Shown: positions 1,719 through 8,232 of the stretch, one piece after another
How positions within the stretch are numbered: position 1 is the stretch's first letter
Layout of the letters: every line of letters starts with the position of its first letter
Assembly (NCBI GenBank): GCA_900556965.1
Contig: USQV01000028.1
Span: 1-8,245, forward strand
Source of the DNA: an uncultured Clostridium sp.
GTDB taxonomy: Bacteria; Bacillota_A; Clostridia; Lachnospirales; Lachnospiraceae
Reading direction: 5' to 3'
DNA length: 8,245 bases
Translations under genes and position numbers: made by a program
The notes under the pieces: model-generated
Seen by the model: the letters and a program-made list of their open reading frames with translations, nothing else
What the model was told of the DNA's origin: nothing
Database searches by the model: none

Positions 1719-3515
1719 ATGGCAGAATCAATGGCAGGCTTAAAGCGTTCCTGCCGCTGTACGGAAGTTACAGAGGCAAACGTTGGACAGGAATTGACCC
1801 TTATGGGATGGGTTCAGAAAAGCAGAAATAAAGGCGGCATTATCTTTACGGATCTGCGTGACCGTTCCGGCATTATTCAGATCATTTTTGAGGAGAGCGA
1901 CTGCGGAACAGAGAATTTCCAGAAGGCAGAGCGTCTCCGCAGCGAGTTTACCATCGCAGTAACAGGAATCGTGGAGAAGCGTTCCGGAGCTGCAAACCAG
2001 AATTTAAAGACAGGCACCATCGAGATGAGAGCACACTCCTTAAGGATTCTCTCCGAATCCGAGGTTGTGCCGTTCCCCATTGAGGAGAACAGCAAAACAA
2101 AGGAGGAGCTGCGTTTAAAATACAGATATCTTGATCTGCGCCGTCCGGATCTCCAGAAGAATATCATGATCAGAAGCCGTGTGGCAACCATGGTTCGTCA
2201 GTTTTTAGCAGATGAAGGCTTCCTTGAGATCGAGACCCCGACCCTTATTAAAAGTACACCGGAGGGAGCAAGAGACTATCTTGTTCCGAGCCGTGTGCAT
2301 CCAGGAGAATTTTATGCCCTTCCGCAGTCTCCGCAGTTATTAAAGCAGCTTCTGATGTGTTCCGGCATGGATCGTTACTTCCAGCTTGCCAGATGCTACC
2401 GTGATGAGGATCTGCGTGCAGACCGTCAGCCGGAGTTCACCCAGATCGATATGGAATTATCCTTCGTGGACGTTGAAGATGTTCTCGAAGTCAATGAGAG
2501 ACTCTTAAAGAAGCTCTTTAAAGAAATCTGTAATTTTGATGTTCAGACTCCGATCCTTCGCATGACATGGCGTGAAGCTATGGATCGTTTCGGCTCCGAT
2601 AAACCGGATATGCGTTTCGGCATGGAATTAAAGAATGTTTCCGATGTAGTTAAGGACTGTGAATTTGTTGTATTTAAGAGCGCACTGGAAAACGGCGGCT
2701 CTGTCCGCGGTATCAATGCCGAAGGACTGGCAGACATGCCGAGAAAGAAGATCGATGCTCTTGTGGAATATGCAAAGGGCTTCGGAGCGAAGGGACTTGC
2801 ATACCTTGCGATCCATGCAGACGGCTCCTACAAGTGCTCCTTCGGAAAATTCATGCAGCAGGAGGAGTTAGATGCCCTTGTTAAGGCAATGGACGGAAAG
2901 CCGGGTGATCTTCTGTTCTTTGCCGCAGACAAAAACAAAGTTGTATTTGATGTATTAGGAAATCTCCGTCTTGAGCTTGCAAGACAGTTAGACCTTTTAA
3001 AGAAGGATGACTTTAAATTCCTGTGGGTAACCGAATTCCCGCTCTTAGAGTATTCGGAGGAGGAAAATCGTTTCGTTGCAATGCATCATCCGTTTACGAT
3101 GCCGATGGAGGAAGACCTTCCGTTAATCGACACTGATCCGGGTGCAGTCCGTGCAAAGGCCTACGATATCGTTTTAAACGGCACTGAGCTTGGCGGCGGA
3201 TCTGTCCGTATCCATCAGAACGATATTCAGGAAAAGATGTTTGAAGTCCTCGGCTTTACGAAAGAAAGGGCTACAGAGCAGTTTGGCTTCCTTCTCGATG
3301 CCTTCAAATACGGAGTACCGCCGCACGCAGGTCTTGCATACGGCTTAGATCGTGTTGTTATGCTCATGGTAGGCGCAGACAGCATCCGCGACGTGATCGC
3401 TTTCCCGAAGGTAAAGGATGCCTCCTGCCTTATGATGGAAGCTCCGGCGCCGGTAGATCCGAAACAGCTTGAGGATCTCGATATCGCGATCGTTGAGAAG
3501 AAGGAAGAAGAATAG
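1719..3515 (+). CDS. aspS: Aspartyl-tRNA synthetase (bacterial type)
   Basis: This 598-residue protein matches the full bacterial AspRS length (about 590). It attaches Asp to tRNA-Asp in the cytoplasm. Domains in order: an N-terminal OB-fold anticodon-binding domain (about 24-115, with LMGWVQKSRNKGGIIFTDLR around 28-47); the class II catalytic core starting around 140; QSPQ at 203-206; motif 2 with RCYRDEDLRADRQPEFTQID (225-244); the inserted GAD domain of bacterial AspRS (about 300-410); and motif 3 GLAYGLDRVVMLM (538-550). A perfect AGGAGG at 1707-1712 lies 6 nt before ATG 1719 and fixes the start. Residue 38 is Lys, where discriminating enzymes such as those of E. coli and B. subtilis have Leu and some non-discriminating ones His, so whether it also charges tRNA-Asn cannot be judged. 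The TAG stop overlaps the first base of a structured repeat. Confidence 0.96.
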   Translation: MAESMAGLKRSCRCTEVTEANVGQELTLMGWVQKSRNKGGIIFTDLRDRSGIIQIIFEESDCGTENFQKAERLRSEFTIAVTGIVEKRSGAANQNLKTGTIEMRAHSLRILSESEVVPFPIEENSKTKEELRLKYRYLDLRRPDLQKNIMIRSRVATMVRQFLADEGFLEIETPTLIKSTPEGARDYLVPSRVHPGEFYALPQSPQLLKQLLMCSGMDRYFQLARCYRDEDLRADRQPEFTQIDMELSFVDVEDVLEVNERLLKKLFKEICNFDVQTPILRMTWREAMDRFGSDKPDMRFGMELKNVSDVVKDCEFVVFKSALENGGSVRGINAEGLADMPRKKIDALVEYAKGFGAKGLAYLAIHADGSYKCSFGKFMQQEELDALVKAMDGKPGDLLFFAADKNKVVFDVLGNLRLELARQLDLLKKDDFKFLWVTEFPLLEYSEEENRFVAMHHPFTMPMEEDLPLIDTDPGAVRAKAYDIVLNGTELGGGSVRIHQNDIQEKMFEVLGFTKERATEQFGFLLDAFKYGVPPHAGLAYGLDRVVMLMVGADSIRDVIAFPKVKDASCLMMEAPAPVDPKQLEDLDIAIVEKKEEE

Positions 3516-3580
3516 TTCAAGTCGAAGGTCTGTGAGACTTGGCGCGTGATTCCTTGGATAAAATCCAATCCCGTGACCTT
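3515..3580 (+). ncRNA. Structured repeat element, copy 1 (predicted pseudoknot RNA)
   Basis: The box at 3515-3552 recurs at 7770-7807 with 35 of 38 bases identical. It starts on the last base of the aspS stop codon. Predicted pairings: CAAGTC (3518-3523) with GACTTG (3536-3541); the loop segment AAGGTC (3525-3530) with GACCTT (3575-3580), making a pseudoknot; CGC (3543-3545) with GTG (3573-3575), which competes for one base with the pseudoknot; GATT (3548-3551) with AATC (3567-3570); and GGAT (3556-3559) with ATCC (3563-3566) around an AAA loop. The same architecture is found in copy 2 with a different distal stem. It is followed after 26 nt by an intrinsic terminator. It could be a 3' UTR RNA, a cis-regulatory element or a small mobile repeat. 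I do not recognise the family. Confidence 0.5.
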
Positions 3581-3606: not shown

Positions 3607-3658
3607 ATCCCTGTTATTATCTGTTAAAATATAACCGATAGTAACAGGGATATTTTTT
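3607..3658 (+). terminator. Intrinsic terminator of the hemZ-hisS-aspS transcript
   Basis: ATCCCTGTTATTATC (3607-3621) pairs over 15 bp with GATAGTAACAGGGAT (3637-3651), including one wobble. An inner GTTA/TAAC stem with an AAATA loop caps the hairpin, and a run of six T follows at 3653-3658. It lies 91 nt after aspS and 100 nt before the response regulator gene, so it separates the two transcripts. Confidence 0.85.
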
Positions 3659-7769: not shown

Positions 7770-7864
7770 GTTCAAGTCGAACGTCCGTGAGACTTGGCGC
7801 ATGATTCTGGTCAGCAAAGCTGACATATTCCATACAGAATCACTGTGCATCCTCGTGGAGCGTT
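7770..7864 (+). ncRNA. Structured repeat element, copy 2 (predicted pseudoknot RNA)
   Basis: The box at 7770-7807 matches copy 1 at 35 of 38 positions. Pairings: CAAGTC (7773-7778) with GACTTG (7791-7796); loop segment AACGTCC (7780-7786) with GGAGCGTT (7857-7864, one bulged G), a pseudoknot; GCGC (7797-7800) with GTGC (7845-7848); GATTCTG (7803-7809) with CAGAATC (7835-7841); and TCAGC (7811-7815) with GCTGA (7819-7823) around an AAA loop. Relative to copy 1 the distal stem is changed in sequence but kept as a stem. The element points away from floT and starts 35 nt upstream of its ATG; its reverse complement would lie in the floT leader if the floT promoter is further out. No promoter was identified for it. 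Confidence 0.5.
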
Positions 7865-7866
7865 TA

Positions 7867-7893
7867 TCTCAGTGGGAGTCTTCTCGACTGAGA
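7867..7893. other. Hairpin immediately after repeat copy 2
   Basis: TCTCAGT (7867-7873) and ACTGAGA (7887-7893) form a perfect 7-bp stem, which can be extended by GAG/CTC around a TCTT loop. It begins 2 nt after the last predicted helix of the structured repeat. There is no T-run on either strand, so it is not a standard terminator. Confidence 0.4.
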
Positions 7894-8002: not shown

Positions 8003-8232
8003 GTGAACCTCACATGGCTAAAGTCACGTGCTTCTCAGCCGCTTTAAGCGGCAAGACTAAATATCGGCGGATACGCCAGTAACTTAGAATTGGTGCGGAT
8101 ACGCACTTTTTCCACGCCGGATACGACTGGTTTCCACATTACAGGTAGTCCGCTGGATATCTGCCTGTGTTTATGCCGCTTTTAAGTCGCTTACTTCTAC
8201 ATAAAGCTTTCTTAAATCTGCATAAACACAGG
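8003..8232 (-). ncRNA. Candidate omega RNA (reRNA) scaffold of the tnpB element
   Basis: In tnpB elements the RNA that guides the nuclease is made from the 3' end of tnpB through the right end, with the guide taken from the flanking DNA. This stretch fits. On the - strand there is a long rod closed by a 13-bp perfect inverted repeat (8232-8220 with 8176-8164), with inner helices 8216-8211/8186-8181 and 8207-8204/8192-8189. Three short hairpins follow, at 8130-8112, 8106-8093 and 8077-8066, each with the apex CG-TATC-CG, then the palindrome at 8052-8038 and the end hairpin at 8030-8011. The hairpin at 8112-8130 pairs better as - strand RNA (G-U) than as + strand (C-A), which supports this orientation. 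The guide would begin at about 8002 and run leftward. Confidence 0.42.

Follow-up and report, generated by a model that had tools for sequence, protein, structure and literature searches.

The stretch of DNA analysed here (8,245 nucleotides (nt) of contig USQV01000028.1 from an uncultured Clostridium sp., hereafter the window) carries a 38-nt direct repeat at 3515-3552 and 7770-7807, with 92% identity between its two intergenic copies, which ranks second among the 50 direct-repeat families listed for the window. Comparison with relatives revealed that these repeats belong to a mobile element whose ends are precise and for which empty sites exist. It is probable that both of them (copy 1 and copy 2) belong to a single family of short, gene-less mobile DNA elements, mainly from Lachnospiraceae, which would be non-autonomous, of the IS200/IS605 type (IS, insertion sequence), similar to palindrome-associated transposable elements (PATE) and with an unusually elaborate conserved fold. 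A preliminary description of this DNA, which reported its letters correctly, had interpreted the repeat as a pseudoknot RNA, where the loop of a CAAGTC/GACTTG hairpin (GAAGGTCTGTGA in copy 1 and GAACGTCCGTGA in copy 2) pairs with a distant strand (GACCTT and GGAGCGTT, respectively) and a compensatory change distinguishes both copies. This hairpin, called P1, is indeed present in copy 1 and copy 2.

The ends of the element were established by means of empty sites. The 19 sites tried were the flanks of 16 copies from G012, a genome of the Anaerobutyricum hallii genus (6 of its 22 loci had been dropped because the right end was not recognised), and of three copies from A. hallii. Five of them gave empty sites with exact junctions (L094, L093, L108, L024, and L104). 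The joined G012 flanks are uninterrupted in A. hallii, being ...AATA/ATAAA... for L094 and L093 and ...CCAGA/ATAAAT... for L108 (the slash marks the junction). For the A. hallii copy L024 the empty counterpart is in G012, and for L104 a similar site within the same genome is unoccupied. Moreover, L097 is an apparent sixth empty site with a diverged flank, L092 presents a shortened flank in A. hallii, and L100 and L013 gave no clean junction. At the five empty sites, which belong to the TTTAT subfamily, the insertion took place without target duplication and directly 5′ of ATAA(A), which corresponds to 3′ of TTTAT on the other strand. Since no base is duplicated and the L093 and L094 junctions cannot slide, the element is defined as TTCAAG...GACTGAG, and its length in this subfamily is mostly 177-179 nt (repeated loci counted).

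Concerning the flanks, the right one is ATAAA in 31 of 34 copies (34, 33, 32, 33, and 32 of 34 at the successive positions), and the left one, compared in 51 copies, showed no consensus except for an A/T adjoining the element; copies without a recognised right end were omitted from the former set. There is a hairpin near each end, P1 at one and the terminal hairpin at the other. In addition, a motif inside the element matches the flank in each subfamily examined, when compared by eye (TTTAT/ATAAA, TATAT/ATATA, TTTAAC/GTTAAA, and TTGAAC/GTTCAA), with ends proven only for TTTAT.

To place the element taxonomically, several searches were combined. A degenerate pattern found 15 places in a species-level genome collection, 11 of them in Clostridium fessum and 4 in A. 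hallii. The same pattern gave no match in viral contigs, and neither did copy 2 in phage and plasmid collections, so a phage or plasmid origin was rejected. G012 alone has 25 places at no more than 3 mismatches. A covariance-model search, as proposed in the preliminary description, did find homologues: a first model (R1), made of 14 copies including copy 2 and excluding copy 1, had matches in 145 of the 397 genomes of the family of G012 (E ≤ 0.01, with at most 10 candidates scored per genome and stricter filters). When 40 of these 145 genomes were searched more deeply, they showed 1-43 copies each, with at least 10 in 14 of the 40. A broader model (R2), made from the alignment A3 described below and including copy 1, had matches in 6 of 291 genomes of the class (E ≤ 1e-5), three of which are also in the family set; the two models and cut-offs differ and both proportions are not directly comparable. 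Hence, the element is mainly a family-level feature. It should be noted that NCBI taxonomy assigns C. fessum to Clostridiaceae, yet its genome G001 is in the family set of G012, and A. hallii to Lachnospiraceae.

The copies have a common 5′ start and 3′ end and unrelated flanks. The C. fessum copy L009 and the A. hallii copy L013 are 97.7% identical, and the 15 pairs formed by six copies range from 91.6 to 98.3%. The existence of such near-identical elements in C. fessum and A. hallii suggests a transfer between genera. Copies truncated at one end are common in C. fessum: the 5′ part is missing from 7 of 20 right ends (17 from C. fessum and 3 from A. hallii) and the 3′ part from L001, L011, L014, L021, and L031, L011 being from A. 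hallii.

Some copies presented other features. About 70-140 nt of extra palindromic sequence are inserted in the P3-P4 loop region of L006 and L034, and the terminal hairpin of L216 is interrupted by a sequence that resembles, by eye, the start of a group II intron. L191, L337, and L338 (genome G278) contain two or three tandem copies about 120-126 bases apart, and in L224 a Clostridiales-1 RNA (Rfam, 664-830) lies 36 nt from the copy. Many copies of G142, G324, G214, and G322 (L198-L205, L218-L222, and L317-L336) directly precede a hairpin similar to a host terminator, with which the 3′ A-run of the copies is merged (by eye). Several copies of G043, G271, and G425 are within 150 bases of a contig end, which is expected if the repeat breaks assemblies.

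On the sense strand, the element consists of P1 at the 5′ extremity, a nested stem formed by P2, P3, and P4, a core (GCGCATCC-TCGCGGAGCG), the TTTAT motif, and the terminal hairpin. The core is close to invariant among subfamilies whose P1 and P3 sequences are completely different. Two overlapping alignments were used: A3, with 66 distinct rows from 63 chosen sources (copy 1 is included, as are nine of the sequences in the model), and A4, with 92 distinct rows from 100 chosen sources. In A3, the 25 pairs of P1-P4 are formed in 98.3% of cells, with 388 double-change cells and a covariation of 0.672 versus 0.178 in shuffled alignments and at most 0.081 with slid partners. In A4, 97.1% of cells are paired, with 698 double-change cells and a covariation of 0.784 (slid partners, at most 0.107). 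Therefore, the nested helices P1-P4 covary very strongly, and the conserved shape with changed sequence that had been noticed between two copies is real for them at the family level. The outer stem of the terminal hairpin also differs copy by copy yet stays paired in several genomes, in a comparison where the hairpin was picked by best pairing, a choice that inflates this result, and where the groups did not include all copies.

These features can be compared with those of IS200/IS605 elements, which have no terminal inverted repeats, generate no target duplication, require a hairpin at each end, and are inserted on the 3′ side of a fixed tetra- or pentanucleotide, and of which PATEs are ends-only derivatives, according to the passages of PMC7290912 on this family. 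On the complementary strand, the element lies 3′ of TTTAT, where an IS200/IS605 element moved by a Y1/HUH transposase TnpA would be expected to sit. Furthermore, three TnpA elements of A. hallii share a common sequence from ATTTAT onward, with different flanks, and the left-end hairpin of the A. hallii IS aligns over 29 columns with the element end that adjoins TTTAT, at 8 and 12 nt from this motif. This alignment scores 33-34 in four copies, whereas the best of 4 x 2000 mononucleotide shuffles scores 26 and the best of 546 tiled controls 21. The left end of a second IS group, which carries tnpB, starts at TTTAAC, and the copies of the G366 type have an internal TTTAAC and, in 3 of 5 cases, a flanking GTTAAA.

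A Y1/HUH TnpA could mobilise the element in trans by recognising its end hairpins, and the internal TTTAT would pair with the target ATAAA, helping to place the cleavage. The role of P1-P4 and the core is most likely in the movement of the element itself, which they would serve as a folded end structure, either as DNA or as RNA. The element would be a kind of ends-only IS200/IS605 element not previously described, with a putative mobilising enzyme. On the other hand, it is unlikely, although worth considering, that P1-P4 and the core act as a functional scaffold, of RNA or single-stranded DNA, that binds a putative protein and lets this gene-less element choose its own target. This idea comes from the match between internal and flanking motifs in each subfamily examined and from the outer terminal stem, which varies yet pairs; if true, it would be a new guide-based spreading route for a tiny non-coding element.

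Several results weigh against an IS200/IS605-type mobile element. No clean junction was obtained at 14 of the 19 sites, and all the empty sites come from the TTTAT subfamily. Both alignments were fitted to the model, which in the case of A4 was built from A3. Copying between palindrome arms, which is a known mutational route, could mimic covariation or contribute to it, especially at the terminal hairpin. The aligned parts of the A. hallii IS stop at contig ends, and the comparison is that of the left end only. Y1 transposases are present in 11 of 18 element-rich genomes versus 5 of 12 others, which leaves 7 of the 18 without them. R2 found nothing significant in 30 Y1 loci (one match, E 0.33) and 13 further IS loci gave no element match; the location of the element inside a TnpA or TnpB IS was rejected, as nothing beyond that single match appeared. 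Finally, TTTAT is here on the far side of the hairpin, which it would extend, whereas the guide of IS200/IS605 lies 5′ of the hairpin according to the corresponding passages of PMC7290912 and PMC8266576.

The features of both copies in the window are collected in Table 1.

Table 1. Features of the two element copies in the window (coordinates of the forward strand).
Feature	Position	Strand	Evidence
Copy 1, 3′-truncated element fragment (5′ end TT, P1 hairpin, 5′ strands of P2 and P3)	3516..3553	+	R1 match, model 1-38
Copy 1 P1 hairpin: CAAGTC 3518-3523, loop 3524-3535, GACTTG 3536-3541	3518..3541	+	Sequence; P1 covaries in the family
Non-element DNA: TTGGAT-AAA-ATCCAA hairpin and GACCTT 3575-3580, whose last two bases open a promoter-like stretch	3554..3580	+	aspS loci of relatives; drop of the model score
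Copy 2, element shortened internally, both ends present, TTCAAG...GACTGAG, 122 nt (177-179 nt in relatives)	7771..7892	+	R1 match 7771-7868; ends from empty sites of relatives
Copy 2 P1 hairpin CAAGTC-GA-AC-GTCC-GT-GA-GACTTG, with tandem G.A, 2 bp, and tetraloop	7773..7796	+	Extended P1 in 21 rows of the same loop type
Copy 2 P2, P3, and P4	7797..7848	+	A3: 98.0 (P2), 98.6 (P3), and 98.1% (P4) of cells paired
Copy 2 near-invariant core GTGCATCCTCGTGGAGCG, followed by TTTAT 7863-7867; includes the claimed pseudoknot strand GGAGCGTT 7857-7864	7845..7867	+	Conserved across subfamilies
Copy 2 terminal hairpin CTCAGTGGGAGTCTTCTCGACTGAG, adjoining the target motif	7868..7892	+	

The window contains hisS, aspS, a response regulator and histidine kinase pair, and a flotillin gene, and the end of aspS shares 83% identity with its C. 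fessum counterpart. Copy 2 is located 35 nt upstream of the start codon of the flotillin gene, which is on the other strand. Its 5′ module is identical to L012 in 93 of 98 nt, it scores 115 bits with R1 (by construction, since it is part of the model), and its right flank is ACAAA instead of the usual ATAAA.

Copy 1 is located 3′ of the aspS stop codon, before the promoter region of the response regulator, and its sequence marks it as a broken, 3′-truncated fragment of the element. With the downstream DNA it scores 28.6 bits with R1 (E 2.3e-7), and when cut at 3553 it reaches 33.6 bits as a 3′-truncated match, a higher score. In 30 aspS loci of relatives, R1 found no element in 29 and one weak match (L146, E 0.0089), which was judged as chance. 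A search for copy-1 orthologues in the 397 genomes matched 295 of them, and none of the matches listed goes more than 1 base beyond the aspS stop. From 3579 onward, the sequence (TTTGTGAAATGTTCGTGAAC) is similar to that preceding the same response-regulator gene in relatives, where a TTTGTGAAA..GTGAAC-like stretch is clear downstream of aspS in 5 of the 30 loci (L140, L141, L148, L155, and L161), with the start of the response regulator visible behind it in L140, L148, and L155. Because the promoter-like stretch of relatives begins at 3579 in the window, GACCTT lies at the edge of DNA that is not part of the element.

Two inverted repeats were also noticed in the window. ATCCCTGTTATTATCTGTTA/TAACCGATAGTAACAGGGAT (3607-3651, 90% complementary and followed by a T-run) separates the promoter-like stretch from the response-regulator gene, and CCTGTGTTTATGCCGCTTT/AAATCTGCATAAACACAGG (8164-8232) is close to the window end and could be the end of another mobile element.

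With these limits of copy 1, the compensatory change proposed in the preliminary description is not supported, and neither is a stable RNA of 70-100 nt: for the change, its partner in copy 1 is outside the element, so the loop of an element was being compared with unrelated neighbouring DNA. In fact, the complementarity of the copy-1 loop to the DNA downstream of the fragment is near chance level, as at least 6 Watson-Crick pairs are reached in 4.2% of 5000 shuffles and, when the window is tiled, in 8 of its 172 segments, and the observed G-U-tolerant pairing length of 7 in 29% of shuffles. Likewise, of the fold said to be kept in both copies, the P1 hairpin stands and the part of copy 1 beyond about 3553 is not confirmed, since the score rises when the copy is cut there. 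A functional pseudoknot RNA, selected as such and held by pairing of the P1 loop with a downstream strand, is therefore highly improbable, despite some data that would be consistent with it. The loop and core of C. fessum can form about 10 pairs; the ten loop-core pairs are formed in 75.2% of A3 cells versus 38-52% for slid versions; several pseudoknot measures are reached by only 5-19 of 500 shuffles; and 172 of 208 pseudoknot cells pair in the 21 rows with the loop type of the window (copy 1 included, with GA on the 5′ side as the selection criterion). However, shuffled alignments pair nearly as well (73.7%), and the covariation is 0.141 compared with 0.126 when shuffled and at most 0.128 in slid versions, so that covariation supports P1-P4 and not the pseudoknot. 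The core-side partner columns are nearly invariant while the loop varies, and in the same 21 rows the loop bases extend P1 instead, through G.A (21/21) and A.G (21/21), followed by A-T in 12, G-C in 8, and C-G in 1, and then by C-G in 19, G-C in 1, and G.G in 1, the latter being copy 1. The P1 loop of other subfamilies is also a stem with a tetraloop, by eye. A weak or invariant contact between loop and core may nevertheless occur.

Another explanation is an RNA-guided element, in which P1-P4 and the core are a scaffold similar to omegaRNA, which a TnpB- or IscB-like protein would use in trans, taking its guide from the flank. In IscB and TnpB systems, a conserved scaffold lies at the edge of the element, the target is not duplicated, and one side bears a short conserved motif, a layout that fits the element described here, and TnpB genes are present in G001 and G012. 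Over all helices, G-T exceeds A-C (36 versus 10 distinct cases), which looked significant, but much of the excess is in P1 (19 versus 2), mostly from subfamilies whose P1 seems misaligned; the counts are 5 versus 0 in P2 and 12 versus 8 in P3 and P4. As these last two are the best-aligned helices and show no clear preference, the fold is not clearly RNA-selected (a tRNA control was not used, since it had only 5 distinct tRNAs). Besides, the IS loci of three groups that carry TnpB showed no similar fold, and only 2 of 80 genomes (68 of these 80 bear the element) have the N-terminal domain of IscB/IsrB (PF14239) above the cut-off; an IscB/IsrB partner was rejected for nearly all genomes. Only one copy, L408, falls within an IscB locus, and it lies over 1 kb away from the end of iscB. 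Rfam gave no match to the element, HEARO included: Rfam 15 at E ≤ 10 found five sub-threshold matches in the window (best E 0.48), only four neighbouring RNAs appeared in 15 relatives at the gathering cut-off, and one tRNA plus nine sub-threshold matches (lowest E 0.001) in 14 relatives at E ≤ 1. A known RNA family was consequently rejected, as the matches were neighbours (Clostridiales-1, T-box, c-di-GMP-I, and tRNA) or sub-threshold. Altogether, an RNA-guided element seems quite unlikely. Repeats of the repetitive extragenic palindromic (REP) type, spread by a domesticated TnpA-REP, are very unlikely as well: the high copy number and palindromic structure of the element and the Y1 transposases of the element-rich genomes would agree with them, but the 30 Y1 loci had no significant element match nearby, and 177-179 nt with five helices and TTTAT differ from a REP, described in the relevant part of PMC8266576 as a 20-50 nt palindrome preceded by a conserved tetranucleotide.

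A folded mobile element that has relatives in more than one third of the sampled family genomes and matches nothing in the RNA library searched would represent a frequent genome feature that has so far gone unlabelled. It is also a test case of how strong covariation can arise from the fold of mobile DNA instead of RNA, and of target selection by gene-less IS200/IS605-type elements. The results of a literature search contained no report of this element, and a term search in the text of a review (PMC10969869) on miniature inverted-repeat transposable elements (MITEs) did not find Clostrid, Lachnospir, or IS200.

Regarding known systems, the element is short, non-autonomous, and dispersed like bacterial MITEs, from which it differs in having neither perfect terminal inverted repeats, as far as was seen, nor target duplication. 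HEARO and the omegaRNA of IscB are structured sequences at the edge of IS200/IS605-like elements, and the element also has a structured sequence at its edge, but it lacks an Rfam match, and 2 of 80 genomes have the IscB-type domain above the cut-off. It shares with REP/REPtron its dispersed and palindromic nature and possibly a link with Y1, and differs in length and number of helices; no GTAG box was noticed, though it was not scanned for. PATEs are the closest in kind to the interpretation preferred here. The element departs from them in its conserved P2-P4 stem and core, which has relatives in 145 of 397 genomes and was not found in the IS loci examined, and in its internal motif complementary to the target, which occupies the opposite side of the hairpin. 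Like the PATEs described in the passages cited above, it is made of ends only, gene-less, without target duplication, located beside a short conserved motif, and provided with end hairpins.
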